Assembly (NCBI GenBank): GCA_903917755.1
Contig: CAIXBT010000006.1
Location: 1 to 38,761, forward strand
Origin: an uncultured Bacteroidota bacterium
Lineage (GTDB): Bacteria; Bacteroidota; Bacteroidia; Chitinophagales; LD1
DNA length: 38,761 bases
Direction: 5' to 3'
The translations under genes were made by a program, and so were the position numbers. Positions 1,769 through 28,049 of the stretch are shown here, one piece after another. Numbering within the stretch: the stretch's first letter is position 1; the number at the start of each line of letters is the position of its first letter. Under the pieces are notes generated by a model. The model searched no databases, had not been told where the DNA came from, and saw nothing but the letters and a program-made list of their open reading frames with translations.

Positions 1769-3481
1769 CTAAAACTCCCACCCGATCAGCCCTGCCACTT
1801 CCTCTGCAGACAGAGGCTTAACAGCTTTCAGATCAGAACCGCCATAATGTGTGGTCAGATATTTCAATGCCGGTTCAACCCATCCTTTGCTGCCATCATC
1901 GAGTGCATCTATGAGCAGCGATATCTGATATAGTGAGGTCAGCTTTTCGAAAAATACACGAGCGGTAGCTTCCATCTCATCCTGTGGCAGCTGTCTGAGC
2001 TGTTCGCCGAATGCGATGATCTTAGATAGCTCCTCTTTCACAAAAGCGCCATACACCTGACTCCTGGCCGCACTTGCACTGATCTCGGAGGATATCATTT
2101 TAAACCCATCAGATTTAAACAAGGCACGCAGCATATCCAGGATGATGATATTGCCGGAACCTTCCCATATCGGCAGCACCATCATATCGCGCATGAGTTT
2201 AGGTATTACACCGTCTTCGATATAACCGATACCACCCATCAGCTCCATGCTTTCGCGAACTATATAGACTCCCTTTTCAGCGGACCATTTTTTAGCCATC
2301 GGATTTATGATGCGGAAAAGCTGTGCTTCTCTTTCATTGCCGTTATCAGCATTGTCCAGCGCTTTGACCGCGCGCCATACGAGATAGAAGTTCGCCACAT
2401 TTAGCGCACCGATCTCTGTCAGTTTGGTGCGAATGAGCGCATGTTCCAGCACAGTCTTGCCGAAAGTCTGACGTGTATTCAGATATTGATATGCCTCGAT
2501 CAGAGCGCGCCGTGAGTTAGACAGTGCAGCCACAGAATTATACAGGCGAGAGAGGTTCACCATGTCTACCATCACTTTGAATCCCTCAAATTCATTGCCT
2601 ATCAGTTTCCCGACGGTATCGGTCAGTATGCACTCTGCACTTGCCATACTGCGCACACCGAGTTTTTCTTTCAGCCTGATGAAATCGATGGGATTTCTTT
2701 CTCCATCTGGCAGATTTTTTTCTACCAGAAATATCGACAGACCTTTGGTACCTTTGATGGCCTCATCTGTACGTGCCAGCGCGAAAATGATATCCGCATT
2801 GGCATTACTGCAGAACCACTTTTCGCCGTTCAGCAGATAGTTTTTTTCTTCCTTATAGGTCGCTGTGGTGATATTGGCCCCCACATCCGAACCGCCTGTC
2901 TTTTCGGTCAGATACATAGCCCCCGTGAAAAGCTCTTCCGGGTTTTCGGTATAGATGCGTGCCAGCAGGCGGGCTTTGTCATCTTCATCGCAATACAGAT
3001 CTATCAACCGTGCAGCGCCATCGGTCATGCATAGCGGGCAGTACTGTCCGCTCTCACTCATGGCATAGAGATAGCCCGCCGCAAAACCCAAACGATGTGT
3101 TTCTTTGATGAATTTTTTGCGAAGCGATGGCTCCCATTTCACCCGAAACATTTCGGTCTTCACGGCTGTTCTCATGAGCTCCCAGTAGGCAGGATGAAAA
3201 CTGATCTCATTTATATCCTCGCCAAAAAAATTGCGCTTGACCAGTTGCGGGCCATATTTATCTGCCTGCAGAGAGAGTTCATTCATCTTGCCCGCAGCCT
3301 CGGCACCGGTATACTCCAGTTTGTCCTGCATGTAGGCGAGTCCTTCTTTTGACACTTCATGAGCCAGATAGTGGCGAAGTATCTGATCGCTTTTATAAAA
3401 ATTTTCGCTGGGGCGAAACTCCGTATTCAGTACTTTGTTCTTTTCTTTGGGATAGCGTGCGGTAGATAGCGTTGTGTCCAT
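1769..3481 (-). CDS. Acyl-CoA dehydrogenase, AidB-like
   Basis: A 570-residue flavoprotein of the acyl-CoA dehydrogenase superfamily, which oxidises the alpha-beta bond of an acyl-CoA using FAD. The helical N-terminal domain (about 1-180) is followed by the beta-domain signature YLTEKTGGSDVGAN (about 190-205) and NGEKWFCSNANAD, then the C-terminal helical bundle with RQTFGKTVLEHALIRTKL and LMGGIGYIEDG. Near residue 440 comes PIWEGSGNII, whose glutamate is at the place of the catalytic base in AidB and isovaleryl-CoA dehydrogenase relatives. At 570 residues it is longer than ordinary 380-residue dehydrogenases, as expected for the AidB branch common in Bacteroidota. AidB itself binds DNA and protects against alkylation in E. 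coli; whether this one does is unknown. It stands alone, with a palindromic candidate operator just upstream. Confidence 0.88.
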   Translation of the reverse strand: MDTTLSTARYPKEKNKVLNTEFRPSENFYKSDQILRHYLAHEVSKEGLAYMQDKLEYTGAEAAGKMNELSLQADKYGPQLVKRNFFGEDINEISFHPAYWELMRTAVKTEMFRVKWEPSLRKKFIKETHRLGFAAGYLYAMSESGQYCPLCMTDGAARLIDLYCDEDDKARLLARIYTENPEELFTGAMYLTEKTGGSDVGANITTATYKEEKNYLLNGEKWFCSNANADIIFALARTDEAIKGTKGLSIFLVEKNLPDGERNPIDFIRLKEKLGVRSMASAECILTDTVGKLIGNEFEGFKVMVDMVNLSRLYNSVAALSNSRRALIEAYQYLNTRQTFGKTVLEHALIRTKLTEIGALNVANFYLVWRAVKALDNADNGNEREAQLFRIINPMAKKWSAEKGVYIVRESMELMGGIGYIEDGVIPKLMRDMMVLPIWEGSGNIIILDMLRALFKSDGFKMISSEISASAARSQVYGAFVKEELSKIIAFGEQLRQLPQDEMEATARVFFEKLTSLYQISLLIDALDDGSKGWVEPALKYLTTHYGGSDLKAVKPLSAEEVAGLIGWEF

Positions 3482-3743: not shown

Positions 3744-6014
3744 ATGAAAGCATTAAGCAATAAAACCATTCTATTCTCCGGCGTATTTGAAGGATATGAT
3801 AGAACTGATCTGGAGATGCGCGCTGTGGCTGCAGGCGCTAAACTTTTAAGTGGAGTAACAAAAAATCTCGACTACCTCGTAGCCGGCGAAAAGATGGGTC
3901 CTCAAAAAAAGCTGAAGGCCGCCGAACTCGGAGTACCCGTCATCACTTTGCAGGACTTTCTGAATATGCTGGGCACCGAGCCTCAGGCCAAAAGCACAAG
4001 ATCAGTATCAGTAGAAAAGGAAACCAATACAGACGCAGCTATACAGCAGATAGAAAAGATCAACTGGTCTACATTTAAGGCAGCTACTGACTTGCAGCCC
4101 CTGCGCGATCTCCTGCAGCAGATAGAAAAGAAACAAGGTGTTGACCTGCACAAAAAGGTATCAGACCTCCTGCTAAAGAAAACGAAATGGCGACTGCAGC
4201 ATAACTATGGACATAAAAGCGAGATGGTGGCTTTCGGCCTGAGTCCTGACGGCAAATATTTTGCTACTGGTAGCTGGGTGAGCGATGACTACGAAGCAGG
4301 CGGAGACCTGATGGTCTGGGAGGTCGCATCCGGCAGATGCATCCGTACACACAACGTGGATGGAGGTCTGGGGTGGCCGGATTATGCTGACTGTATTCAG
4401 TGGAGCGCAGATGGCAGCCTGCTGGGGATCAGCGAAAACACAAATGCTGTAGGAGTATATCAGGCTTTCTCTCCTGATTTTAAAAATATCGCATACGCAG
4501 GTGTGACAGATGGGTACTCAAGACCAGCCGCATGGGCTCTCTCGCCTGACAATAAGATGATCACTGTTTCCTGTCACTATGGCAAGGATAATGTGCCCGG
4601 TGGCAAATGCCTGCTGAAGGATTTTGACGAAGATGAGATGCAGTGGTTCGCAGAAAGCTGGGACAAATCCCTCTACAAAACGAAAAATGGTAGTGACGAC
4701 GAAGCAGAACTGCACCCTATGAAATGGACAAAGTGGAGCCCCGATGGCAAATGGATATATGGCGCCAGCAATCGTCAGTTCTATACCATCAATGCCAAAA
4801 CGGGTGATCTGAGATACGCTCTCACCGTGGGTTCGAACGAACATGCAGCAGTGAGCTCTGATGAGACACTGATCGCTATGGATATGGGAGGGCTTTCTTT
4901 TTATAGTTTTGAAAACGGCACTCTGATCAAAACACACAAGACCAAAACCATCAACGATCTCCTCTGGGCCTCAGGCAAAAAAAACAGACTGGCAGTGATC
5001 GGCGCCGGTATTCAAATATATGACAATGCAGAACTGCTATGCAGCATCGATACATCACCCATCAAGGCTAAATACGATCTCCCCGATGCCAGACAGTGGG
5101 CATTCTCTCCCGATGGCGGAAGCGGTGCCTGTCTCACAGCCAAAGGTATCGTGCTGATATGGAGTATTAGTAACGAGCCTCAGCTGGTCAATACCATACA
5201 GGTCAAAAAAGATGCACGAGGCATCTATTGGGGAGCCGGCGATATCCTTGTGGCCGTTTCGGGTTCAGATGTTGAATTCATCAATATTAAAAACGGTGAA
5301 ACCCTCAATGCTTATACCATTGATCACGGCAGCGGGGTTTCCATACCATATACCAGTATGTCGCCATTGGCCAGCTCTGCCCTCGAGGCTCAGTCAGCCA
5401 ATATCTCCTGTGCCATTTATAATAAAAAAGACTTCCGTTGGATCGCGGTCTTTGACAATGTGGTGGTAGCACCCGCCGATCTTCATTCAAAACTGGATGA
5501 GACCATCAGCTGCATACTCGATGAGAGATACAGCTGGCCGTGGAGATGGACGAAGCCTAATGTCTTTGCCACTGCTACAGAGGCAGCTAAAATGCTGCCG
5601 GCCTATACCGCAGCGCAGCTGGCCACAGTGAGTCTTGCCCCGCCTATACTCACTCAGGATGAGCTATTCGAGACACTTAGTATTAATGATAAGTGCTTCG
5701 CCAGCACGGTGGCCACTTTCAAAAAAAGTATTAAGATCACAGAGATCGTGATCCCGCTGAAGGATGCTAAATTTTATAAAGCACAAAACAAAATGCAGGG
5801 TCCAACTCTGATCATGGAGAATGTTAAGAAGCTGGTGGGGAAAGTTGTCTTGTTCGCACATAAATATTCTCCTAATAGAACTCAGATCGGCTCTATCATA
5901 GGTTTCTATGACGGCACTGTCATTGTGATATACAAAACCGCTACCAGTAGCGGTATGGCCAGAGCTGCCTGTGAGGACTATATATTCATGGCTGAGGCAG
6001 TAGCTAAAGACTAA
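3744..6014 (+). CDS. BRCT domain fused to a WD40-like beta-propeller protein
   Basis: The 756-residue product starts with a BRCT domain (about 3-76: KALSNKTILFSGVFEGYD, the GAKLLSGVTKNLDYLVAGEK strand-loop, and ELGVPVITLQDFLNML), of the type found at the C-terminus of NAD-dependent DNA ligase, where it binds DNA ends or phosphopeptides. A charged helical linker (about 90-150) leads into WD40-like blades, recognisable by repeated SPDGK or SADGS turns (FGLSPDGKYFATGS near 165, QWSADGSLLGIS near 220, WALSPDNKMITVS, KWSPDGKWIYGAS, AFSPDGG). The last 180 residues are not assigned. No signal peptide is present, so it is expected in the cytoplasm. It stands alone between the acyl-CoA dehydrogenase and the rhomboid genes and is bracketed by a rhomboid-tail duplication. 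A signalling or DNA-damage scaffold role is only a guess. Confidence 0.8.
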   Translation: MKALSNKTILFSGVFEGYDRTDLEMRAVAAGAKLLSGVTKNLDYLVAGEKMGPQKKLKAAELGVPVITLQDFLNMLGTEPQAKSTRSVSVEKETNTDAAIQQIEKINWSTFKAATDLQPLRDLLQQIEKKQGVDLHKKVSDLLLKKTKWRLQHNYGHKSEMVAFGLSPDGKYFATGSWVSDDYEAGGDLMVWEVASGRCIRTHNVDGGLGWPDYADCIQWSADGSLLGISENTNAVGVYQAFSPDFKNIAYAGVTDGYSRPAAWALSPDNKMITVSCHYGKDNVPGGKCLLKDFDEDEMQWFAESWDKSLYKTKNGSDDEAELHPMKWTKWSPDGKWIYGASNRQFYTINAKTGDLRYALTVGSNEHAAVSSDETLIAMDMGGLSFYSFENGTLIKTHKTKTINDLLWASGKKNRLAVIGAGIQIYDNAELLCSIDTSPIKAKYDLPDARQWAFSPDGGSGACLTAKGIVLIWSISNEPQLVNTIQVKKDARGIYWGAGDILVAVSGSDVEFINIKNGETLNAYTIDHGSGVSIPYTSMSPLASSALEAQSANISCAIYNKKDFRWIAVFDNVVVAPADLHSKLDETISCILDERYSWPWRWTKPNVFATATEAAKMLPAYTAAQLATVSLAPPILTQDELFETLSINDKCFASTVATFKKSIKITEIVIPLKDAKFYKAQNKMQGPTLIMENVKKLVGKVVLFAHKYSPNRTQIGSIIGFYDGTVIVIYKTATSSGMARAACEDYIFMAEAVAKD

Positions 6015-6030: not shown

Positions 6031-6903
6031 CTATTTATTACTGAACTTAAAGAGAAAATCCTTTTCCTCTTTCGAAAGGCTGTTATAGCCTGATTTAGCT
6101 ATTTTGTCGAGTATCAGGTCCAGTTTCTTTTGTTCGCTGTCAGATGGAGAATCCTTTCTGTTTGCGGTATTGACATAAGTGGCTTTGAGCTTGCTTTTGG
6201 GTTTAAACAAACCTGCAATCTTATCTAAAAAAGTAAACCAGTCTGTCCCTGCCCGCAGAGATATGATATACAGATAGCCAAAAGCTGCACCGCCTATATG
6301 CGAGATCATACCACCTGCATTGCCGCCTGCTATGGTCACATAACTGATCAGAAAACATACGAGGGCCACATATTTGATAGCCACCTCACCGATCAGCCAG
6401 ATATTCACCCGGTGCTCGGGATTGAGTGCTGTGGCAGCAAATATAACTGCAAAAATACCCGCAGATGCGCCCACCAGATGTCCGTTATTTATACTCGTAG
6501 CAAGTACTGGCAGCAGATGGCTGATGCACATGGTCAGGATGCCTCCCGTCAGGCTACCGAAAATAAAAATAGCGAGCAATCGCTTCTCCCGCATATACAA
6601 TTCATATATCTCACCAAACCAATACAGACATAGCATATTGAAAACGATATGCGAGAGGCCCGCATGCATGAACATGAACGTAATGAGTGACCAGGGCTGC
6701 CACAGCAGGCTGCCGAAGCTCAATGGCAGAGCAAACCTGTCATATATATTGACATAATACCAGACATCCTTTTTGGCAGACCAAAATCCAAGATGCAAGG
6801 TTTCAAACACTAAAAAAAATACAATACAGATACAGATCAATATCATCACGATATTGCCGCGTCTGAACTGATAGCTTATATCTTCCCAAATGGATCTGAA
6901 CAT
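6031..6903 (-). CDS. Rhomboid-family intramembrane serine protease (290 aa)
   Basis: A six- or seven-segment membrane protein that would cleave transmembrane helices within the bilayer. Visible hallmarks are HAGLSHIVFNMLCLYWFG (about 80-97, the HxxxN region), the nucleophile motif GASAGIF with Ser147, and SHIGGAAFGY with His202, giving the Ser-His dyad. A cytoplasmic C-terminal tail (about 225-290) ends KEEKDFLFKFSNK, a tail common on Bacteroidota rhomboids. The gene lies 39 bases downstream of the second rhomboid and is probably co-transcribed with it. Its last codons are duplicated at 3601-3665. The substrate cannot be told from sequence. Confidence 0.9.
   Translation of the reverse strand: MFRSIWEDISYQFRRGNIVMILICICIVFFLVFETLHLGFWSAKKDVWYYVNIYDRFALPLSFGSLLWQPWSLITFMFMHAGLSHIVFNMLCLYWFGEIYELYMREKRLLAIFIFGSLTGGILTMCISHLLPVLATSINNGHLVGASAGIFAVIFAATALNPEHRVNIWLIGEVAIKYVALVCFLISYVTIAGGNAGGMISHIGGAAFGYLYIISLRAGTDWFTFLDKIAGLFKPKSKLKATYVNTANRKDSPSDSEQKKLDLILDKIAKSGYNSLSKEEKDFLFKFSNK
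6038..6085 (-). repeat. Rhomboid 3' end matching the remnant at 3601-3665
   Basis: Direct-orientation partner of the fragment upstream of the BRCT/propeller gene: the first 22 bases (6038-6059) are identical to 3608-3629, and similarity continues weakly further into the rhomboid coding sequence. The two copies start 2430 bases apart and enclose exactly one gene. Confidence 0.6.
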
Positions 6904-6942
6904 CTTTGTCGTTTATGGTTTTATCGTTTCGCAATAGCATTC

Positions 6943-7659
6943 TCAAAATAAAAAAGTTCTGTTGCGATTCCAGATCTTTACTATGATATATCCGGTCAAT
7001 GCTCCTCCGATATGTGCGAAATGCCCTGTGGTATCTGATGGATTGTTAGCGAAGCCAAATACCACTTCACCAAAAAACATAGCTCCCAGGAGATATTTGG
7101 CCTTGATCGGTACGGGTATGAACATCAGCATCAGTTCCGTATTGGGAAAATACATCATAAAGGCCGCCTGCAATCCGAATATGGCTCCCGATGCACCTAC
7201 CGCCGTAGCGTTGACCAGGGAGAAAAGCTGCTGACTGGAGTACACCATATTCATCGGCGGAACGAAGGTTCCCGCTATGTTATATATCTGCAGTGCCTTG
7301 ATACCAAAATCCAATATCGTAGCTCCAAGACCAGTCATCAGATAAAATTCCAGAAATCGCCTTTGCCCCCAGAACCGCTCCAGCATGCTACCGAATATAT
7401 ACAGGGCAACCATATTGAAGAAGATATGCCCGATACCCTCGTGCATGAACATGTGCGTTACTATCTGAAACGGCCTGAAAAATTCTGAGGTGGGATAATG
7501 CACCCCCAGAAACATGAGCGCAGGACTGATCACTCTGTCATATAGCGTGGATGGAAAGATGCCCGGCAGCAGTGATGTGACTCCGTAAATGAAGACATTT
7601 ATTGCTATCAGATTGAATACTACACTGCGGGTATCGATATTAGGACCTCGATTGTACAT
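6943..7659 (-). CDS. Rhomboid-family intramembrane serine protease (238 aa)
   Basis: A second rhomboid protease, first gene of the minus-strand pair. It has HEGIGHIFFNMVALYIFGSM (about 73-92), GASGAIFGLQAAF with the predicted nucleophile Ser157, and HFAHIGGALTGY with the dyad His216. Six membrane segments are visible. It lacks the long cytoplasmic tail of its neighbour and ends soon after the last helix (KIWNRNRTFLF). The ATG at 7659 faces coaX, 100 bases away, so both transcripts start from a shared intergenic stretch. Tandem rhomboids in this arrangement are frequent in Bacteroidota; the pair may have split by duplication. Confidence 0.9.
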   Translation of the reverse strand: MYNRGPNIDTRSVVFNLIAINVFIYGVTSLLPGIFPSTLYDRVISPALMFLGVHYPTSEFFRPFQIVTHMFMHEGIGHIFFNMVALYIFGSMLERFWGQRRFLEFYLMTGLGATILDFGIKALQIYNIAGTFVPPMNMVYSSQQLFSLVNATAVGASGAIFGLQAAFMMYFPNTELMLMFIPVPIKAKYLLGAMFFGEVVFGFANNPSDTTGHFAHIGGALTGYIIVKIWNRNRTFLF

Positions 7660-15780: not shown

Positions 15781-18700
15781 TTACTTATTCAATACAAGTC
15801 TGTAATACAGAGACCTTCCATCTACAGTGAGCTGAACTATATAGACTCCCGATACAGCACCTGTCAGTGAGATCAGTTCCCTGTTATCTCCCGAATGAAG
15901 TATCAATGGCCTGATCAGCACGGTCTGGCCTACCATATCTATGACAGATACCTGAGCATCTCTGTTCGTGATCGAGAGTGCATTGATATCCATATTAAAT
16001 GTGCCCTGTGTAGGATTCGGATAGATATTGACACCCTGTATGAATGATATCTGATCTGAAATACCGGTGAAGAAACTATTGCTGAAACTGTGTGTCACAG
16101 CCGGGCATTCATTATTACAATCTATTCTGCACAGGATACTATCCTGCTCACCCTCCGGATATGACACGACAGCCACAGGACTATGTATACCCAAGGGTCT
16201 GATATTTATATACCAACTGTAATATGGATCCGTGCAATCTGTATAACTGGCAGTGAAAGTATCTATCTGCATACCTCCTACTACCGGGCCGCGACTCACA
16301 ATGATACTAACTGAAGGAGTGATGGATGGCAATACTGTCAAATGAAGTGTACGTATGCTATCACAGCCACTAACGCCCGCTAGTGTATCAATATAGCTAC
16401 CAGCCTGTGTGTAAATATGTGAGCCGATGGTCACATTCTGTCCCTGACAGATACTCTGTGCTACTGAGTCATAGACCGGAAATGACAATCTTAGAGTCAA
16501 AGTCACTATACTATCGCAGGAGGCGGTAGCAATGGTATCTTGATAAACTCCCGCCTGAGTCAGCACCTGAGTTCCGAATACAAAATTTTGGCCCTGACAC
16601 ATTGTATGCGAGAAGGCACCATGACTAAAGTTTCCTACATGTAGATTCAACACATGAATACTGTCACAATTGGCTGTGGTGAATGTATCTCTATATATGC
16701 CCGGCGTGCTGTATGTGTGTGTACCCACAGTCACGCTTTGTCCGGCACAGATACTGGTCGATGTCGAATCATAAGCTGGCGCAGTGCTGGTCAGCGTAAG
16801 TGTCACGATACTATCGCAGCCCGATGTAGGGATCGTATCATAATATACTCCTGCCTGAGTAAGTGTAATACTGCCGAAACTAAAGTTCTGACCCTGACAG
16901 ATGTTTTGCGAAATAGAGCCACGACCAAAGCTGCCCATCTGTAGATTTAAAATATGGATGCTGTCGCAGTTTGCCGTCACAAAAGTGTCTCTGTATATAC
17001 CTGTGGCCGAATAGGTATGTGTGCCTACTATGACACTCTGCCCCGGGCAGATGCTTTGGGAAACGGAATCATATGAAGGCGCAGTGATACTCAGTGTGAG
17101 GGTTATGATGCTATCGCATAGCACTGTAGGGATCGTATCATAATATACCCCCGCCTGACTGAGCGACACAGCACCAAACAGAATACTCTGTCCCTGACAG
17201 ATGCTCTGCGAAACGGAGCCATATATATAGTTGTTGACCTGCAGATTGAGGATATGAATACTGTCGCAGTAGACCGTAGTGAAAGTGTCGCGATAGATGC
17301 CAGTAGTAGAATATGTGTGTGAACCGACCGTCACACTCTGTCCGCTGCATATATTTTGTAATACGCAATCAATGGCCGGACCGTGGACAGTCAGTGCCAG
17401 TGTCACAATACTATCACAGCCTGCAGTAGAGATCGTATCATAATAGGTGCCTGACTGTGTGAGCGTGTTCGTTCCGAATACATAGCCCTGCCCCGTACAT
17501 ATAGTTTGTGACACAGCGCCATGCTTGAAGCCGCTGACCTGAAGATTCAGAATATGAATGCTGTCGCAGTTTGCTGTCGCAAAAGTATCTCTGTAAATAC
17601 CTGTAGTGGTATATGTATGTGTACCGACTGTTACACTCTGTCCCGTACATATACTTTGGTAAACCGAGTCAATGACGGGGCCTTGCACCGTGAGGGTCAA
17701 GGTTATAATACTATCACAGCCTGCAGTCGGGATAGTATCATAATACAATCCTGCCTGAGACCGGGTTATACCTCCGAATACTACACTCTGCCCCTGACAG
17801 ATGGTTTGTGCTGTAGCGCCATGAGTGTAGCTGTTGACCTGAAGATTCAGTATATGGATACTATCGCAATTGGCCGTCACAAAAGTATCTCTGTAAATAC
17901 CGGCTGTTGTATATGTATGCGGACCCACTGTCACACTTTGTCCGGGACATATACTTTGCGATACCGAGTCATACGCAGGCCCCCAGACCGTCAGTGTAAG
18001 TGTTACTATACTATCGCAGCCCGATGTAGGGATCGTATCATAATATGCGCCGGTTAGCGATCTCGTTATTCCTCCGAATAGGATGCTCTGTCCCTGACAG
18101 ATGGTTTGAGCCACAGCTCCATGTTTAAATCCGCTCACCTGCAGGTTAAGTATATGAATGCTGTCGCAACCTGCGGTCACGAACGTATCTCGATATATTC
18201 CGGTGGTGGAATATGTATGAGTCCCGACGGTTACACTTTGTCCGGTACAGATACTTTGAGCTACCGAATCATAGACCGGCCCCCTGATGGTCAGTGTCAA
18301 TGTCACTATACTATCGCAGCCTGATGTTGCTATAGTATCATGGTAAGATCCGGCCGTAGTGCGCGAGATACCTCCGAATAATACACTCTGCCCGGGGCAT
18401 ATGGTCGAAGCGATGGCACCATATCTATAGCTGCCAATATGCAGATTCAGGATATGGATACTATCGCAACCAGAAGTCACAAAAGTATCTCTGAAGATAC
18501 CGGTGGTCGTATAAGTATGTGTACCGACTGTTACACTTTGGCCGGGACAAATATTTTGTGCCACCGAATCATAGACCGCCCCCCTGATGGTCAGTGTCAA
18601 TGTCACTATACTGTCACATGGGTTTGCAGGTATCGTATCATAATATACTCCCGCCTGTGTGCGCGATATTCCTCCGAAAAGGTAGCTTTGACCCGGGCAG

Positions 18701-20949
18701 ATACTTGCAGATCGTGAAGAGACACCCGTACCGGAAAATATATATGTACTAAAGAAAGTATCCCGGCACCCATTTACACTCACTATTTTAGTGATATGGT
18801 AAGTACCATATTCGGAGATTGTCACAGGACTTAGATAGAGCGAGTCTCCGGTATAAGTGCCCCCGGAAGGCAGATGCCAGATATAGGTGACATACGGTGA
18901 ATACTGACAAATAAGAGTAGCACTATTTCCAGCGCATGAAGATCCAGTATTAGATGCAGGAGTGAATGAAGTAGTATCGACCGTGAAGGTATAGGTACCA
19001 GCAAATCCGCATGAATCTGTGACACGCACCACATACGAGCCGGGCAGAGTCAGCGAAAAGTAATTGGACGACTGCACACCTGTGGTCTGAGGGCCGCTCA
19101 GTATCTGATATTTATAAGGCGGTACCCCTGTGGTGCTATCAGGCTGCATCACCACCTGAACTGCACCATGACATTTTGCCTGACTGACTACTGATATCTG
19201 AGGAGACTGATATGGCGGGATAGTGATGGTATCTCGTATGATCTGACAGGAAGTATTATGATTGACCGGAATGGAGTATGTGGTCTGGATATATTGTAGT
19301 GTTAGCTCGTATGTACCTGCATTAAGACTATGGATCGTATCAGTCGGTGAAGTCATACCAGTCGTACCACTTGATTGGGTCAAAATGGCCGAGGAGAAAT
19401 AATCATTGCCAAAAATGATCGTATTCTGACCCGGACATCCCTTGATATAAGAAAACTTGAAATGGTCATTGTTCAAATTTTGTCGTGTGATCGTAAAACT
19501 GTCGGTGATCGTATTGCCGCATGAATCTGAAACACGATAATGATATGTACCGGCGGCCAGATTGGTTAGCTGAACGAAGTAGCCATTAGTCCCGCTATTA
19601 GCTATATGCGTCTGGGGATAAATGATGGAGTCATAATACACAAAAAAGGGCTTCGTGCTGCTGATATGGTTAGGCCCGGAGAGCAACGTAACGGCAGGTA
19701 AGGAAAAGAAGGTGTTTTGCCAGTAGATCTGCATACAGGCCGTCGAATCCATACAGGTCACACCTATTATGCTTTTTGTGGTCAAAGGTGTGGGTGCATT
19801 AGGCCACAGGATATTACTGGTATATGTATGCCCGCACCCGTCTGTGACTGTTACCTTATATGTTTGGCCTGCCATCATAGCAGCTGAATATCCGAATGGA
19901 GTATAATGATTGATCGCATCATTGGTCACCGTAGAATCGAGGACCGCACCTGTTGTGACACTTTTGACCACCACAGTGACAGGCTCGGGCATATAGGTGG
20001 TGTTCACATTACGCTGAGCGGTATCTCCGGTCACATAAAAATCTGCTATGAACTTCACATGACATGAATCTGATATCGAACTGAAATTTTCAGCTATATT
20101 AAAATCAGAAACCGTGTTGGCTCTGTGTATACTTCGCCCGCAAGCATCTGTAATGGTGATATTGATAGAGTCTCCATAACTTACCCCGCCTACATTTTCA
20201 TTTATCAAAGGATTTGAACCGCTGTAAACGATATTGGTGATCGTGTGCTGGTAGGTCCCGTTATGTGTCTGTACCTTGATGGTATATGGCTTGGAATAAT
20301 AGGAATTGATCACAAACAATACGATATTGAGGTTGACCGAATCGCAATTGAAGATGCGGTTAGTGATCGTTAATATCCCAAATGAATCATTAGGATCTGT
20401 GAGTGTACCCGAATAGGTAGCATAGTTTCCGCATGAATCAATTTGTCTGATGCTGTAATTGCCCGAGGTCAGATTGGAGAAAGTATCAGATGCCTGAGTA
20501 GTAGTTTGATTAGTAGTTAAATTGGTCAGCACCCATGAGAATGGCGGCATACCTGTGTGTGCAGCACCTGATATGACACCCGTGGCAGTACCTGCGCATT
20601 GAGGGCTGGTAAAGGTGGGAGTGAAATTGGGCGATGTATAACTCCCCGTCACTATAGCAGCTACACGTGAGGTATCGTGGAGATTGTCCGTCACCATCAC
20701 CTGATAAGTGCCTGATAGCAAATTCACGAATTGATCAGGGCTTTGTTGGGGGCGTGTCAAAGGACCGCTGGTGATAGTGTACAGCATTGTACCCGTACTA
20801 TGAGCATATACCGTGATCGTACCGTTATTGGCACATGTACTGGGTGTGGTACGCACTGAGTCTATTGTGAGACTTGCGAAGCTGGCTGCTGCATTACAAA
20901 CCAGGGCGATCAGCAAAATTGTTTTAAAAAAAAGTGAATTTACTTTCAA
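15781..20949 (-). CDS. Giant secreted repeat protein, T9SS type A-like sorting domain (1722 aa)
   Basis: Start is TTG at 20949 (an in-frame stop lies two codons upstream), giving a signal peptide MKVNSLFFKTILLIALVCNA. Residues about 30-740 hold Ig-like and SprB-like repeats with paired cysteines (for example TGVPPYKYQILSGPQ and YVVRVTDSCGF). About 741-1536 are eight units of roughly 100 residues, each with two half-repeats: ICxGQ...FGG...GCDSIVTLTLT, then YDSVxQSICPGQSVTVG...CDSIHILNL. Each half has two cysteines about 27 residues apart. The end (from about 1636) is a C-terminal sorting domain: NIYPNPTQGTFNMDI ... VIDMVGQTV ... GVYIVQLTVDGRSLYYRLVLNK. The protein is predicted to be exported by the type IX system and attached to or shed from the cell surface; adhesion or a fibre-like role is inference. 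Paralogue of the gene at 21069-28049. Confidence 0.88.
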   Translation of the reverse strand: MKVNSLFFKTILLIALVCNAAASFASLTIDSVRTTPSTCANNGTITVYAHSTGTMLYTITSGPLTRPQQSPDQFVNLLSGTYQVMVTDNLHDTSRVAAIVTGSYTSPNFTPTFTSPQCAGTATGVISGAAHTGMPPFSWVLTNLTTNQTTTQASDTFSNLTSGNYSIRQIDSCGNYATYSGTLTDPNDSFGILTITNRIFNCDSVNLNIVLFVINSYYSKPYTIKVQTHNGTYQHTITNIVYSGSNPLINENVGGVSYGDSINITITDACGRSIHRANTVSDFNIAENFSSISDSCHVKFIADFYVTGDTAQRNVNTTYMPEPVTVVVKSVTTGAVLDSTVTNDAINHYTPFGYSAAMMAGQTYKVTVTDGCGHTYTSNILWPNAPTPLTTKSIIGVTCMDSTACMQIYWQNTFFSLPAVTLLSGPNHISSTKPFFVYYDSIIYPQTHIANSGTNGYFVQLTNLAAGTYHYRVSDSCGNTITDSFTITRQNLNNDHFKFSYIKGCPGQNTIIFGNDYFSSAILTQSSGTTGMTSPTDTIHSLNAGTYELTLQYIQTTYSIPVNHNTSCQIIRDTITIPPYQSPQISVVSQAKCHGAVQVVMQPDSTTGVPPYKYQILSGPQTTGVQSSNYFSLTLPGSYVVRVTDSCGFAGTYTFTVDTTSFTPASNTGSSCAGNSATLICQYSPYVTYIWHLPSGGTYTGDSLYLSPVTISEYGTYHITKIVSVNGCRDTFFSTYIFSGTGVSSRSASICPGQSYLFGGISRTQAGVYYDTIPANPCDSIVTLTLTIRGAVYDSVAQNICPGQSVTVGTHTYTTTGIFRDTFVTSGCDSIHILNLHIGSYRYGAIASTICPGQSVLFGGISRTTAGSYHDTIATSGCDSIVTLTLTIRGPVYDSVAQSICTGQSVTVGTHTYSTTGIYRDTFVTAGCDSIHILNLQVSGFKHGAVAQTICQGQSILFGGITRSLTGAYYDTIPTSGCDSIVTLTLTVWGPAYDSVSQSICPGQSVTVGPHTYTTAGIYRDTFVTANCDSIHILNLQVNSYTHGATAQTICQGQSVVFGGITRSQAGLYYDTIPTAGCDSIITLTLTVQGPVIDSVYQSICTGQSVTVGTHTYTTTGIYRDTFATANCDSIHILNLQVSGFKHGAVSQTICTGQGYVFGTNTLTQSGTYYDTISTAGCDSIVTLALTVHGPAIDCVLQNICSGQSVTVGSHTYSTTGIYRDTFTTVYCDSIHILNLQVNNYIYGSVSQSICQGQSILFGAVSLSQAGVYYDTIPTVLCDSIITLTLSITAPSYDSVSQSICPGQSVIVGTHTYSATGIYRDTFVTANCDSIHILNLQMGSFGRGSISQNICQGQNFSFGSITLTQAGVYYDTIPTSGCDSIVTLTLTSTAPAYDSTSTSICAGQSVTVGTHTYSTPGIYRDTFTTANCDSIHVLNLHVGNFSHGAFSHTMCQGQNFVFGTQVLTQAGVYQDTIATASCDSIVTLTLRLSFPVYDSVAQSICQGQNVTIGSHIYTQAGSYIDTLAGVSGCDSIRTLHLTVLPSITPSVSIIVSRGPVVGGMQIDTFTASYTDCTDPYYSWYINIRPLGIHSPVAVVSYPEGEQDSILCRIDCNNECPAVTHSFSNSFFTGISDQISFIQGVNIYPNPTQGTFNMDINALSITNRDAQVSVIDMVGQTVLIRPLILHSGDNRELISLTGAVSGVYIVQLTVDGRSLYYRLVLNK
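16340..18725 (-). repeat. Eight tandem 300-bp coding units
   Basis: Equivalent positions such as the CDSIVTLTL codons recur at 16501, 16801, 17101, 17401, 17701, 18001, 18301 and 18601, that is exactly every 300 bases with no indel. Each unit encodes two related half-repeats. Nucleotide identity between units is high but not complete, so the sequence has diverged while keeping its register. Confidence 0.9.
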
Positions 20950-21068: not shown

Positions 21069-24000
21069 TTACCGTATCAGGGTCACATTACCGCTTTGTT
21101 TTAACACATTGCCGATAGATCCCTTTACGGTTATGTAATAGATATATACTCCTATCGGTTGTTTAAGGTTTTTATAAGTTCCATCCCAACCTATTGTGCC
21201 TGAGCCCTCATAGTCATAAACCATTTGTCCCCAGCGGTCATATATCTGAAATGAAAGTACCTCTACCAAGCCATTTTTCAATATCGGGCGATAAATATCA
21301 TTGAGATTGTCGCCGTTTGGCGAGAATGCCGTCGGTATTAAAAAGTCCGGAAGGTCAGCTCCTGTCACCGTTATCAGGATCTCTGCAGAAACAGGGCAGT
21401 GATTAATATCTTCAGCGGTCACATAGTAGATCGTATTCTCTGAAGGAGACACAATGGTAGAGGCTGAATAAATATTTGATATGGCTGAATCCGGTGACCA
21501 AAGGATGTTATAATAATTTCCCGTAGGGCTGATACTGAGCTTGACAGGATTGCCGGATACTACCGGAAGCTGCGTAGAAGAAATGACGATGATGGAAGGT
21601 TTGTAAAGGTGTACAGAGTCTACCCATATGATACTATCCAGACCGCAGCTGGACAGAATCGTATCTCTGATGACGGTGTCTTTCGTATAAGTTACGCCAC
21701 CGATAGTAGCCGAGTAGCAGCTATCTACATGCTGATGTGTATGAAGCGGACTAATGACCTGCAGATGAGTATTGCTAATAATACTATCACAGCCACCAAG
21801 CAGAGTCCGTATTGTATCTGAATATACACCCGGGGCAGTGCGCGTCTGCCCCGCTATCACATACGATTGGCCGCTGTAGATACAAGCGGAATGATTGATC
21901 ACACTGTCCACCATAGGCGAAATATGTATCTGTGTAGCCCTGAATATACTGTCGCAACCCATAGCACTATGTAGTGTGTCAAGTATGGTGGCATCAGATG
22001 TATACAGCTGACCACCGTACACCACTGTGCAGATGCCGTTAATATTTACGGTTTGTGGTGCAGGAGATATGACATTGAGCTGTGTAGTGATGATACTGTC
22101 ACAGCCACCCGGTACTATCACAGTGTCTGCATAGCTGCCACTGACAGAGTAGCTGTGCGACCCGATCGTAGCACTCTGACCCTGACAGATAGTGATAGTG
22201 GCAAAACCCTGTAAATATGGCCCGATCCTCAGGTTCAATACATGTATGCTGTCGCATCCTGCCGTCGGGATCGTATCTCTGTATATACCTGCGGTGCTGT
22301 AGTTGTGGGCACCTACTGTCACTACTGCACCGGGACAAATGATCTGTGTCACGGAATCATAGAGCGGCCCCCTGATGCTCAAAGTCAGGACCACGATACT
22401 ATCACATGCAGCGGTAGGGATACTGTCATAATAAACACCCGCCTGAGTGAGTACATTACTGCCAAACACAAAACTTTGTCCCGGACATATGACCTGAGAA
22501 ACAGCCCCATAAGTGAAACTGCCCACCGTCAGATTCAATACATGTATACTGTCGCAGCCTGCGGTAGGAATGGTGTCATAATAAATGCCGGCGGTGCCAT
22601 ATGAATGTATACCGACGGTCACGCTTTGTCCCGGACATATATTTTGTACCACTGAATCATATAGCGGCCCTCTGATACTTAAAGTCAGCGTCACTATACT
22701 ATCGCATGCTGCTGTAGGGATGGTGTCGTAATAGGTGCCTGCCTGTGTAAGTGTCGCACCGCCGAATACAAAACTCTGGCCCGGACAGATCAGCTGTGAA
22801 ACTGCACTGTAAGTAAAGCTTCCCATCACGAGATTCAATACATGTATGCTATCGCAGCCTGCTGTCGGAATAGTATCGTAATAAATACCGGTAGTGTTAT
22901 ATGTATGCACACCGACGATCACGCTTTGGCCCGGACATATATTTTGTGAGACAGAATCATAGAGTGGCCCTCTGATGCTCAGGGTCAATGTCACTATACT
23001 ATCACAACCCGTCGTAGGAATGGTATCATAATATACTCCAGCCTGTGTCAGGACATTAGCTCCGAATACGAAACTCTGACCAGGACAGATAATTTGTGAA
23101 GTGGAGCTCCGTCCATTACTTATCACCTGAAGATTCAGGACGTGAATACTATCACAGCCCGCTGTAGGAATAGTATCATAGTAAATACCTGTGCTGTTGT
23201 ATGAGTGCGCCCCGACAGTCACAATTGTACCCGGACAGATACTCTGCGATACGGAATCATATAGCGGACCTCTGATACTCAATGTCAAGGTCACGATACT
23301 ATCGCAGGCAGAGGTAGGGATACTGTCATGATACACACCTGCCTGTGTGAGTACATTGCTGCCAAATACAAAATTTTGTCCCGGACATATCACCTGAGAG
23401 ATAGCTCCATATGTGAAACTACCCACACTGAGATTTAATACATGAATACTATCACAGCCCGCTGTAGAAATGGTATCGTAGTAAGTACCTGTCGCGCTGT
23501 ATGTATGCACACCGACAATCACACTCTGACCCGGGCATATATTTTGCGACACCGAATCATAGAGAGGTCCTCTGATCGTCAGGGTCAGGGTCACAATACT
23601 ATCACATCCTATGGTTGGTAATGTGTCATTGTAAGAACCAGCCTGAGTGAGCACATTTGTTCCAAATACAAAGCTTTGACCAGGACATATCACCTGCGAA
23701 AATGCTCCGTATTTAAAATTTGTTACCACCAGATTTAAAACATGAATACTATCACAACCTGCAGTTGGGATCGTGTCATAATATAGGCCTGTCGTATTAT
23801 AGGTATGTGTGCCGACCGTTACACTTTGTGCAGGGCAGATACTCTGCGATACTGAATCATAGAGCGGGCCTCTGATGGTCAGGGTCAATGTCACTATACT
23901 ATCGCATCCAGTGGTCGGCAGTGTGTCATTATACACTCCCGCCAAAGTGAGTGTGTTTGCGCCAAAAACTAAACTCTGACCCGGACAGATCATCGTGGCT

Positions 24001-27000
24001 ACTGCACCACGCTTATATGGCAACACTGTCAGATTCAGAATATGAAAACTGTCACAGCCCCCCGTCAGGATGGTGTCTCTGTGTATACCTGTGGTATTGT
24101 ATGTATGTGCTCCTACTGTCACAATATTGCCTGCACAGATCGTTTGATTCACTGAATCATAAAGGGGACCTCTGATGGTCAATGTCAATGTCACTATACT
24201 ATCGCATCCTGTGGTTGGTAGTGTATCATTATAGACTCCTGCCAGAGTGAGTGTGTTTGTGCCGAATACTAAACTCTGACCCGGACATATCATTGTAGCT
24301 ACTGTACCTCGCTTATATGGAGTGACCTGCAGATTCCAAACGTGAATACTATCACAGCCAGCCATCAGGATAGTGTCTCTGTAGATGCCCGTTGAATTAT
24401 ACGTATGTCCTCCTGAAGAAACGCTTTGCCCTGCACATATGGTTTGTGACACTGAGTCATATAGGGGACCTCTGATGGTTAGATTTAGGGTCACGATACT
24501 ATCGCATCCGGTAGTAGCGAGCGTATCATAATACACACCAGCCACGGTGCGTGCTATTCCGCCAAAGACCAGACTCTGACCTGGACATATGAGGGTCGAA
24601 ACCGAACCTGTTTTGTATGGAAGGATAGTAAGGTTCAATACATGGATGCTATCGCAGCCAGCCGTTAGGATCGTGTCGCGAAATAGTCCTGCTAAATTAT
24701 AGGTATGTACACCGATAGTCACACTTGTTCCCGGGCAGATACTTAGTGAAACTGAATCATAGAGCGGGCCTCTGATGCTCAGGGTCAATGTCACAATACT
24801 ATCGCATCCAGTGGTCGGCAGTGTATCATTATAGACTCCCGCCAGAGAGAGTGTGTTTGTGCCGAATACTAAACTCTGACCCGGGCAGATCATCGTGGCC
24901 ATGGTACCGCGTTTATATGGCAGTACTGTCAGATTCAATATATGAAAACTGTCACAGCCCCCCGTCAGGATCGTGTCTCTGTGTATACCTGTGGTATTGT
25001 ATGTATGTGCTCCCACTGTCACACTATTGCCTGCACAGATCGTTTGATTGACTGAATCATAAAGGGGACCTCTGATGGTCAATGTCAATGTCACTATACT
25101 ATCGCATCCTGTGGTCGGCAGTGTATCGTTATAGGCTCCTGCTGTGGTATGGGTTATTCCTCCAAAGACAAGACTCTGACCCGGGCATATCATAGTAGCT
25201 ACGGCACCTCGTTTATATGGGGTGACCTGCAGATTCCATACATGAATACTGTCGCAGCCTGCTGTCAGGATCGTGTCGCGGTATATGCCCGTCGCAGTAT
25301 ATGTATGTCCTCCAGAAGAAACGCTGTTGCCCGCACAGATAGTTTGTGATACAGAGTCATATAGTGGTCCTCTGATGGTTAGATTCAGGGTCACGATGCT
25401 ATCACATCCTGCAGTAGTCAGCGTATCATAATACACACCCGCCACTGTGCGGGCTATTCCGCCGAAGACCAGACTCTGACCCGGACATATGAGGGTCGAA
25501 ACGGCACCTGTTTTGTACGGAAGGATAGTAAGGTTCAGGATATGTATGCTATCACATCCCGCCACGGTGGTGAAGCTATCCCGATATGTTCCGGCGGTAT
25601 TGTATGTATGTACACCGACTGTCACGTGCGTACCGGGACATATACTTTGTGATACGGAATCATAGATGGGCCCTCTGATGGTCAGATTCAGTGCCACAAT
25701 GCTATCGCAGGCCGTAGTTGCAATGGTGTCATAATATACCCCCGGCAGTATGCGTGTGATACCTGCAAATACGACACTCTGTCCCGGACATACACTTTGA
25801 TGAAGCTGTGTAATGGTATCTCCTGTAAAATTATAGGTAGCATAGAACGTATCTCTGCATCCGTTTATGCTTACGATTTTGCGGATATGATAGATACCGA
25901 AATTGGCAGTCGTTATCGGATTGATAAGTAAAGAGTCACCTGTGTAGGTACCCCCGCCCGGTAGCTGCCAGAGGTAAGTGGCATAAGACGAATATTCTAA
26001 ATTAAGATAAGCACTATAGCCCACACACGAAGAGCCCACTTTCACTACCTGCGCAAATGAGATCGTATCTACGGTGAAAGTAAATGTATTTGCGAAGCCA
26101 CAGGAGTCAGAGATACGTGCCACATAGGTACCCGGCAGTGTCAGCGAGAAATTATTCGATGTCTGCAAGCCAGTGGTCTGGGGGCCGCTGAGTATTTCAT
26201 ATTTATATGGCGGTACTCCGGTAGTGCTATCAGGTAAAAATACCACATCGACAGCACCATGACATTTGATTTGTGTGGCATAAGAAACCCGAGGAGACTG
26301 ATATGGAGGTATCGTGATTGTATCTCGTATGATCTGACATGGCAGATTTTTATTTACGCCTATTGAATAAGTTGTTTGCAAATACTGAAGTGATAGTATA
26401 TAGGTACCGTAGTTAAGATTGATAATGGTATCCTTAGCCGAAGGGAGATTAATCGAAGTGCTTGGTTCGGTTAGTATTCCTGCTGAAAAATTGTCATAAG
26501 ATAGAGCGATCGTATTCTGTCCGGGGCAACCTTTTACATAATTAAAAGTGAAATGGTCGCTATTCAGATTCTGCGGAGTAATTGTGAAACTATCAGTAAT
26601 TGAGTTTCCACAGGAATCATACACACGATAGTGATATGTCCCCGCAGCCAGATTGGTCAATTGGATGCGGTATCCGTTGGTATTGCCCCATCCCAGATGA
26701 AATTGCGGATATACTATGCTATCATGATAAACATAGTGTGGTTTTGTACTACCTATCTGTGTAGGGCCTGACAGCAATTCAAACGTAGGGACTGTGAAAA
26801 ATGTATTTTGCCACAGAAACTGATAACATGCCGTAGAGTCCATGCATGTTACGGCAATGATTCCTTGGTTGATGGAGCGAGGAGGTGTGCCTGGCCAGAC
26901 ATAAGTAGCAGTAAACACATGCCCGCACGCATCGCTCAGCTTGACGTTATATGTTTGGCCGGTGGTCATAGCCCCCGAAAAAGCATATTGCGAAAAATGG

Positions 27001-28049
27001 TTGATAGAATCGTTTGTAACCATAGAATCAAGCACAGCACCGGTCACAGGGTTGCTCACAATCACCGTGAGCGGTGCAGGCATGTATGTCAAATTCACAT
27101 TGGTCTGGCTTGAATCGCCCAACACGAAAAAGGTAGCCAGATATTTCAGCTGGCAGGAATCCGTAAGGGTCAGGGCATTAAAATTATGCAGCACATTGAA
27201 GCTCGCCACAGTATTGGGCACATATACGCTTCTGCCACAAGCATCGGTAATGGTTACGTTGATATAGTCTCCGTAGCTCACACCACTCACATACTCAATG
27301 ATCTGAGGATTCGATCCTGCAGCTACCATATTGGTGATGGTATGTGAATAAGTGCCGTTATGAGTTTGTATCTTGATCGTATATGGCGCAAAGTAGTTTG
27401 CATTGAGCACATTGAGCACAATATTCAGACGCACAGAGTCACAAGGGTAGATGCCGTTAGTGATATTCGCTACACTAAATGAATCATTAGGCGCAGCCAG
27501 TGTGACGCTGTATGTATCGAAATTTCCGCAGGAATCGTACTGTCGAAGCGTATATGTGCCAGCGGGAAGATTTGGAAAACTATCTGAAGCCTGAGTGGTG
27601 CTCACATGTGTGGTTGTATTGGTCAGCACCCAACTGAATGGCGGAGTACCGGCAGCTAGTGCATGGCCCACTATATAACCTGTAGAACTGCCTGGACAAA
27701 AAGGACTCTGAAAAGACGGGGTAAAACTCGGCGAAGTATAACTGCCCCCCACCGTAGCTGTGGTTCGCGCACTGTCATTCAGCAAGTCAGTGATCAATAT
27801 CTGATAGGTGCCGGGAGGCAAGCTGGCAAAAAGATTGCTGCTCTGCGGGGGGCGTGTATTAGGCCCGGCAGTAATAGAATAAAACATAGTACTGCCACTT
27901 CGCGCATATACCGTGGTGGTACCATTATTCGCACAAGTGCTCTTGGTAGTCCGCACCGAATCTATAGTGATAGCAGCATGACCATTCGCTGCCCCAATGA
28001 CTAAAAAGATCAACGCAAAAAACTTAATAACAGCAGCAGTTATTTTCAA
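21069..28049 (-). CDS. Giant secreted repeat protein, gliding-type T9SS sorting domain (2326 aa)
   Basis: Starts with TTG at 28049, giving the signal peptide MKITAAVIKFFALIFLVIGA. Residues about 30-745 are the same Ig/SprB-like N-terminal region as in the 1722-residue paralogue. About 748-1946 hold twelve 100-residue units of the ICPGQSLVFG...GCDSIVTLTL / YDSVSQTICAG...GCDSIHVLNL type. Four looser half-units follow (to about 2149, such as GFATITICQGQSATIGSHSY), then an Ig-like domain and a gliding-motility-associated C-terminal domain (about 2234-2326): FLIPTAFSPNGDNLNDIY ... IYDRWGQMVYD ... GWDGTYKNLKQPIGVYIYY. This is the type B T9SS signal used by large adhesins such as SprB. Export by the type IX system and a surface adhesin role are inferred. 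Cysteines come in regular pairs, suggesting a disulphide-stiffened rod. Confidence 0.88.
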   Translation of the reverse strand: MKITAAVIKFFALIFLVIGAANGHAAITIDSVRTTKSTCANNGTTTVYARSGSTMFYSITAGPNTRPPQSSNLFASLPPGTYQILITDLLNDSARTTATVGGSYTSPSFTPSFQSPFCPGSSTGYIVGHALAAGTPPFSWVLTNTTTHVSTTQASDSFPNLPAGTYTLRQYDSCGNFDTYSVTLAAPNDSFSVANITNGIYPCDSVRLNIVLNVLNANYFAPYTIKIQTHNGTYSHTITNMVAAGSNPQIIEYVSGVSYGDYINVTITDACGRSVYVPNTVASFNVLHNFNALTLTDSCQLKYLATFFVLGDSSQTNVNLTYMPAPLTVIVSNPVTGAVLDSMVTNDSINHFSQYAFSGAMTTGQTYNVKLSDACGHVFTATYVWPGTPPRSINQGIIAVTCMDSTACYQFLWQNTFFTVPTFELLSGPTQIGSTKPHYVYHDSIVYPQFHLGWGNTNGYRIQLTNLAAGTYHYRVYDSCGNSITDSFTITPQNLNSDHFTFNYVKGCPGQNTIALSYDNFSAGILTEPSTSINLPSAKDTIINLNYGTYILSLQYLQTTYSIGVNKNLPCQIIRDTITIPPYQSPRVSYATQIKCHGAVDVVFLPDSTTGVPPYKYEILSGPQTTGLQTSNNFSLTLPGTYVARISDSCGFANTFTFTVDTISFAQVVKVGSSCVGYSAYLNLEYSSYATYLWQLPGGGTYTGDSLLINPITTANFGIYHIRKIVSINGCRDTFYATYNFTGDTITQLHQSVCPGQSVVFAGITRILPGVYYDTIATTACDSIVALNLTIRGPIYDSVSQSICPGTHVTVGVHTYNTAGTYRDSFTTVAGCDSIHILNLTILPYKTGAVSTLICPGQSLVFGGIARTVAGVYYDTLTTAGCDSIVTLNLTIRGPLYDSVSQTICAGNSVSSGGHTYTATGIYRDTILTAGCDSIHVWNLQVTPYKRGAVATMICPGQSLVFGGITHTTAGAYNDTLPTTGCDSIVTLTLTIRGPLYDSVNQTICAGNSVTVGAHTYNTTGIHRDTILTGGCDSFHILNLTVLPYKRGTMATMICPGQSLVFGTNTLSLAGVYNDTLPTTGCDSIVTLTLSIRGPLYDSVSLSICPGTSVTIGVHTYNLAGLFRDTILTAGCDSIHVLNLTILPYKTGSVSTLICPGQSLVFGGIARTVAGVYYDTLATTGCDSIVTLNLTIRGPLYDSVSQTICAGQSVSSGGHTYNSTGIYRDTILMAGCDSIHVWNLQVTPYKRGTVATMICPGQSLVFGTNTLTLAGVYNDTLPTTGCDSIVTLTLTIRGPLYDSVNQTICAGNIVTVGAHTYNTTGIHRDTILTGGCDSFHILNLTVLPYKRGAVATMICPGQSLVFGANTLTLAGVYNDTLPTTGCDSIVTLTLTIRGPLYDSVSQSICPAQSVTVGTHTYNTTGLYYDTIPTAGCDSIHVLNLVVTNFKYGAFSQVICPGQSFVFGTNVLTQAGSYNDTLPTIGCDSIVTLTLTIRGPLYDSVSQNICPGQSVIVGVHTYSATGTYYDTISTAGCDSIHVLNLSVGSFTYGAISQVICPGQNFVFGSNVLTQAGVYHDSIPTSACDSIVTLTLSIRGPLYDSVSQSICPGTIVTVGAHSYNSTGIYYDTIPTAGCDSIHVLNLQVISNGRSSTSQIICPGQSFVFGANVLTQAGVYYDTIPTTGCDSIVTLTLSIRGPLYDSVSQNICPGQSVIVGVHTYNTTGIYYDTIPTAGCDSIHVLNLVMGSFTYSAVSQLICPGQSFVFGGATLTQAGTYYDTIPTAACDSIVTLTLSIRGPLYDSVVQNICPGQSVTVGIHSYGTAGIYYDTIPTAGCDSIHVLNLTVGSFTYGAVSQVICPGQSFVFGSNVLTQAGVYYDSIPTAACDSIVVLTLSIRGPLYDSVTQIICPGAVVTVGAHNYSTAGIYRDTIPTAGCDSIHVLNLRIGPYLQGFATITICQGQSATIGSHSYSVSGSYADTVIVPGGCDSIITTQLNVISPAPQTVNINGICTVVYGGQLYTSDATILDTLHSAMGCDSIFRATQIHISPMVDSVINHSACIYSGQSYVIAGQTRTAPGVYSDTIRTLLGGCDSIISNTHLQVISPLHTHQHVDSCYSATIGGVTYTKDTVIRDTILSSCGLDSIIWVDSVHLYKPSIIVISSTQLPVVSGNPVKLSISPTGNYYNILWSPDSAISNIYSASTIVSPSENTIYYVTAEDINHCPVSAEILITVTGADLPDFLIPTAFSPNGDNLNDIYRPILKNGLVEVLSFQIYDRWGQMVYDYEGSGTIGWDGTYKNLKQPIGVYIYYITVKGSIGNVLKQSGNVTLIR
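22210..25810 (-). repeat. Twelve tandem 300-bp coding units
   Basis: Matching positions recur at 22381, 22681, 22981, 23281, 23581, 23881, 24181, 24481, 24781, 25081 and 25381 in exact 300-base steps, with a last one near 25681 shifted by three bases. The unit is homologous to that of the neighbouring gene. Confidence 0.9.
23715..25515 (-). repeat. 900-bp higher-order duplication inside the repeat array
   Basis: Units 2-4 (about 24615-25515) and units 5-7 (about 23715-24615) match each other better than they match other units. Marker residues recur in the same order in both blocks: GGIARTVAGVYYD, SSGGHTY, DSIHVWNLQVTPYKRG and TGIHRDTILTGGCDSFHILN. This shows a three-unit block duplication. 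Confidence 0.75.

Follow-up and report, generated by a model that had tools for sequence, protein, structure and literature searches.

A LigA/RFC1-class BRCT domain heads five proteins of one uncultured Bacteroidota bacterium and looks like a shared address tag, probably for DNA breaks

The BRCT domain of bacteria usually occurs in one copy, in the NAD-dependent DNA ligase LigA, and networks of BRCT-tagged proteins are, to our knowledge, regarded as a eukaryotic DNA-damage trait. In LigA the single BRCT domain is placed at the C terminus of an adenylating enzyme. The eukaryotic clamp loader protein RFC1 has a single N-terminal BRCT domain, which binds 5'-phosphorylated DNA and sits on an AAA+ subunit of the loader. 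XRCC1 is a non-enzymatic scaffold that is led to strand breaks by BRCT and gathers ligase and end-processing factors, and the candidate defence protein PDC-S48 of PADLOC carries a LigA-like BRCT domain at its C terminus. PARP1 contains another small domain associated with DNA breaks, the WGR domain, which is DNA-binding in PARPs. The MolR/DUF4132-type WGR proteins and the WGR-PARPs place one such domain at the N terminus in front of many different C-terminal parts, sometimes with several of these proteins per genome. In Deinococcus radiodurans, WGR-domain proteins as well as DUF4132 proteins are strongly upregulated when the damage-response repressor DdrO is depleted (PMC8533742).

The window analysed here, a stretch of 38,761 nucleotides from an uncultured Bacteroidota bacterium, contains a gene (3744..6014, + strand) that encodes 756 amino acids from an ATG start and is composed of a BRCT tag, a helical linker, a WD40-like propeller and a C-terminal domain. 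No paper describing a BRCT-propeller fusion in bacteria was found in the literature searched, the coverage of which is incomplete. The gene is divergent from an acyl-CoA dehydrogenase gene with an AidB-type N-terminal domain (1769..3481, - strand), from which it is separated by 262 bases. AidB itself is an alkylation-response protein, but its family is a broad one. Downstream, two rhomboid protease genes (6031..7659, - strand) form part of a conserved block. The flanking genes are context rather than proven partners, and neither a ligase gene nor any other evident repair gene is among them. In congeners the acyl-CoA dehydrogenase and the rhomboid block lie in separate places and the BRCT gene is absent, which bears out the description of the gene in the first-pass annotation as standing alone in a rearranged site. 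The window also contains two very long open reading frames with TTG starts, at 21069-28049 and 15781-20949 (-), of 2326 and 1722 amino acids. The tag was not found in 60 relatives or in samples of the order and the phylum (about 400 genomes each), where the BRCT matches look like LigA. A pattern scan of contigs for orthologues of the tag returned 28 loci, nearly all of them LigA, the exception (L057) being another kind of protein, in which the BRCT domain is C-terminal.

The BRCT tag comprises residues 1-77 (3744..3974, + strand), as delimited by Pfam, comparison of the copies, AlphaFold and Foldseek. Residues 2-74 match PF00533 with an E value of 5e-10 (39.9 bits, where the cut-off is 21.3), and the PDB sequence matches are LigA and RFC1 BRCT domains with E values of about 1e-8 to 1e-7. 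In the AlphaFold model of the full-length protein residues 11-70 have pLDDT values of 97-98, and the domain folded alone gives 88.8, the alignment behind the model consisting of 23 LigA BRCT domains. The best folds returned by Foldseek are the human and yeast RFC1 BRCT domains and bacterial LigA (TM 0.82-0.90), RFC1 being the best structural match, and BRCT heterodimers of the XRCC1-ligase III type are also among the matches. Pfam, AlphaFold and Foldseek agree on the fold of the single-BRCT LigA/RFC1 class, and the N-terminal BRCT domain proposed in the first-pass annotation is confirmed.

The phosphate pocket of this class (Thr/Ser-Gly, Arg, Lys) is complete in the tag. Window residues 5-80 align with residues 159-234 of yeast Rfc1, in which the DNA phosphate is held by Thr166, Gly167, Arg174 and Lys209 (PMC9359705). 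In this alignment the equivalent residues are S12 and G13 (3777..3782, + strand), which form the 'TG' motif by which single BRCT domains bind phosphate, with serine replacing threonine, R20 (3801..3803, + strand) and K55 (3906..3908, + strand). G13, R20 and K55 are invariant across the tag and the 23 LigA BRCT domains, position 12 being threonine or serine, so that the pocket, whose conservation had been put forward as a check, is preserved. The likeness to LigA extends to 36-50% sequence identity with identical phosphate-pocket residues, whereas the tag is N-terminal and the protein that carries it lacks a ligase domain. An assignment of the window protein to LigA itself was rejected, as the LigA models match at the BRCT end only and not in the adenylation, OB and HhH domains. 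The identity with RFC1 is 26-32% in structural alignments. XRCC1 resembles the window protein only in its way of working, having no homology beyond BRCT and no propeller.

C-terminal to the tag, a helical segment of about residues 91-149 (4014..4190, + strand) is common to WGR-tagged and untagged homologues. It is followed by the WD40-like β-propeller, about residues 150-575 (4191..5468, + strand), which is recognised by Pfam, homologues, AlphaFold and Foldseek. PD40 scores above its Pfam cut-off and several WD40-type families well below theirs; a four-strand pattern recurs over about residues 150-575, with pLDDT values of 65-87 mainly in residues 330-525, and the Foldseek matches of the region are propeller folds. 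The mean pLDDT of the full-length model is 54.7 because the alignment covered only the BRCT part, and the model of the propeller is of low confidence. The propeller noted earlier stands as regards PD40, the repeated strands and the fold matches, a closed ring of blades being putative. The C-terminal region, residues 576-756 (5469..6011, + strand), belongs to no named family, in agreement with the earlier remark of 180 unassigned residues, but it does have a homologue, as its last ~140 residues are related to the C terminus of G027, a protein from the same order whose N terminus is cut off by a contig end (score 76; shuffled sequences reach at most 50).

Few relatives of the propeller were found, namely G027, G302 and G366 within the same order and proteins encoded on Embleya, Nonomuraea and Streptomyces replicons. 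The window protein forms a family with G302, G027 and the Embleya and Nonomuraea proteins by homology across the helical segment and the propeller (BLASTP E 1e-91 to 1e-24, 25-42% identity), and phylum-wide and order-wide propeller searches of about 400 genomes each returned this genome and three homologues only. The Embleya homologue has a weak N-terminal BRCT match (Pfam E 0.025, scoring only slightly higher than 1000 shuffles) and is therefore only a probable second case of the BRCT-propeller arrangement; no BRCT domain was found in the Nonomuraea homologue. Additional tags on the Embleya replicon were looked for and rejected, the other BRCT domains there belonging to two LigA proteins and to a short open reading frame in which BRCT is followed by a LigA-like segment.

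The G302 homologue (1753 amino acids) differs at its N terminus, where it begins with a WGR domain (PF05406, E 2e-9). Like the window protein it has a DNA-break-associated domain at the N terminus followed by the homologous helical segment and propeller, with 27% identity over 572 alignment columns; unlike it, G302 has WGR instead of BRCT, an additional propeller region and a TPR-like C terminus. BRCT and WGR interchange in front of the same propeller family. Elsewhere in the order N-terminal WGR domains are found on ATP-dependent ligases, a PARP, a propeller protein and DUF4240, LRR-like, TPR and HEAT proteins, with up to five WGR-headed proteins per genome. One order relative has four WGR domains within 18 kb (G100:C69:36665-54661), with proteins of the WGR-ATP-dependent ligase and WGR-DUF4240 kinds among them. 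Pfam detects no WGR domain (PF05406) in the window protein, none was found in the window genome, and homology to the C-terminal parts of the BRCT-tagged proteins was not found in the sampled WGR-tagged proteins other than G302. The comparison with the MolR/DUF4132-type proteins and WGR-PARPs is one of arrangement, the WGR fold being unrelated to BRCT. On this analysis the BRCT domain of the window genome would work like a WGR tag, and its carriers are not themselves WGR proteins.

The genome to which the window belongs (4.05 Mb in 430 contigs, 96.7% complete with 2.6% estimated contamination) is a fragmented assembly and not that of an isolate. It contains four more copies of the first 80 residues, with 72-80% identity. 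This BRCT piece thus also stands at the N terminus of four further proteins, most of them unrelated, and looks like a shared address tag. In all, the carriers are two WD40 proteins, a WG-repeat protein, a small protein with an orphan domain and another orphan. Similarity among the copies starts at the ATG and stops near residue 78, and none was found upstream of the ATG; shared promoters or a mobile cassette behind the copies are rejected for this reason. The base composition of the tagged genes is close to that of their own contigs. Four of the tags are full-length and form one clade with a support of 0.994. S12, G13, R20 and K55 are identical in all four, as are about 50 of the 81 alignment columns. 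By simple Nei-Gojobori estimates their dN is 0.13-0.22 with saturated synonymous sites (pS 0.72-0.84), while the propellers behind the window tag and the tag on contig C412 differ by a dN of 0.67. This combination indicates purifying selection on the tag, and the saturation excludes recent gene conversion. The tag has been long kept while its cargo diverged, as expected for a common ligand. A single tag, kept by selection and found within one genome on several proteins that are unrelated apart from it, is the arrangement of a shared-tag (adaptor) network. A separate LigA is encoded on contig C78, and descent of the tag from it is unlikely at about 36% identity, this LigA not being placeable in the tree.

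No partner gene is shared across the five contexts. The tagged protein of C412 is a WD40 protein with a longer C terminus, and its gene is followed by two orphan genes, of 203 and 238 amino acids, and an ATP-dependent DNA ligase core of 239 amino acids (L074:4490-6538, -). Neither a family nor a PDB match was found for the two orphans; the ligase core matches PF01068 (E 1.2e-6) and the NCBIfam DNA ligase model (E 4.6e-10) and is absent from all other genomes of the 296 sampled. Orthologues beside repair or defence genes had been named as support in advance, and this sister locus with its ligase is the only such case found, the window gene having no partner of this type other than the divergent acyl-CoA dehydrogenase gene with its AidB-type N terminus. 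The C412 copy has a frameshift and lacks the middle of its propeller, the frame breaking at about 8772-8887 of L074, near a run of eight A. A homologue from Streptomyces chartreusis (L067) is likewise split, into two overlapping frames. The protein on C148 has 212 amino acids, and the gene that follows encodes a paralogue of the second half that carries no tag; this domain was not found in any other sampled genome in order- and phylum-wide searches. The protein on C405 contains eight WG repeats. A ComF-like phosphoribosyltransferase (L076:7771-8514, -), located some 2 kb downstream from where that gene starts, begins with KLLSGVSKNFSYL. The tag has the nearly identical KLLSGVSKNLNYL, a likeness that may be due to chance or may be a recombination scar. 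The orphan on C262 has a deletion and frameshift inside the tag, with about 26 bases lost and the frame shifted at about 6950-7033 of L077. Two of the five loci (C412 and C262) are thus disrupted and three intact, so that decay or misassembly may affect some of the copies.

The reading favoured here, which we hold about as probable as all others together, is that the window protein is a BRCT-addressed scaffold, most likely recruited to DNA breaks or nicks. The tag, as a single BRCT of the LigA/RFC1 class, probably binds DNA and would most likely recognise 5'-phosphorylated ends, nicks or single-strand/double-strand junctions. It would bring the WD40-like propeller and the C-terminal domain to the damaged site. 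Partner proteins would be held there by the propeller and might include enzymes of end processing or ligation, for example the ATP-dependent ligase of the C412 locus; the role may lie in repair or defence. The main rival, rather unlikely in our estimate, is that the tag is a protein-protein address and DNA is not its ligand, all five tags docking on one partner, whether by tag-tag contacts, on the LigA of this genome or on a phosphorylated protein. Such docking is consistent with the invariant columns extending far beyond the phosphate pocket in spite of saturated synonymous sites, with the BRCT heterodimers among the structural matches and with the use of the same DNA-phosphate pocket for phosphopeptides by other BRCT domains (PMC9359705). 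However, the BRCT domain of RFC1, which is of the same class, has DNA and not a phosphopeptide as its known ligand (PMC9359705). The correspondence of S12, G13, R20 and K55 to the Rfc1 pocket favours 5'-phosphate ends, nicks and junctions over phosphopeptides. The usual phosphopeptide readers are, moreover, tandem BRCT domains, and Pfam detects one BRCT and no second repeat in the window protein, and the domain that replaces the tag on the same propeller, WGR, is DNA-binding in PARPs. Because the tag belongs to the single-BRCT class and is not a tandem reader, binding of ends or nicks fits better than phosphoprotein sensing; of the earlier suggestion of a scaffold sensing DNA damage or phosphorylation, the DNA-break scaffold is retained as the best reading and the phosphorylation sensor is the poorer fit.

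A role in defence against phages or other mobile elements, in which patchily distributed accessory proteins would recognise the ends of foreign DNA with their BRCT or WGR domain and exert their effect with the C-terminal parts, is improbable. The tag is indeed very patchy, being absent from the order and phylum samples, the C412 ligase and the C148 domain occur in no other sampled genome, and PDC-S48 has a matching BRCT; but the match to PDC-S48 covers only profile positions 337-407 of 411, the BRCT piece, so that membership was rejected. The neighbours of the tagged genes include none recognised as encoding a nuclease, a toxin or a defence protein, the viral contigs searched yielded no relatives, and phage records gave one LigA BRCT fragment only. 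That the tags are leftovers of a horizontally acquired LigA-type BRCT piece, amplified onto bystander genes and decaying with no common function, agrees with the two disrupted loci and the lack of the tagged gene in congeners but is very unlikely given the long purifying selection implied by low dN at saturated synonymous sites, the three intact loci and the WGR domain on the same propeller in another lineage.

Extended from the window protein to the whole set, a DNA-break response based on the tag is a more tentative proposal, which we hold less likely than not: one LigA-type BRCT tag would recruit unrelated proteins (WD40, WG-repeat and orphan), one of them with an ATP-dependent ligase gene nearby, to broken DNA. 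The set would be a functional counterpart of the WGR set of neighbouring lineages with its ligase, PARP and propellers, the two tags being interchangeable. Five BRCT-tagged proteins in one genome, together with WGR on the same propeller elsewhere, suggest that domains associated with DNA breaks serve bacteria as interchangeable address tags. Recruitment to DNA ends would then be a common role, open to testing, for the many WGR proteins that lack an explanation, among them those in the DdrO regulon of Deinococcus.
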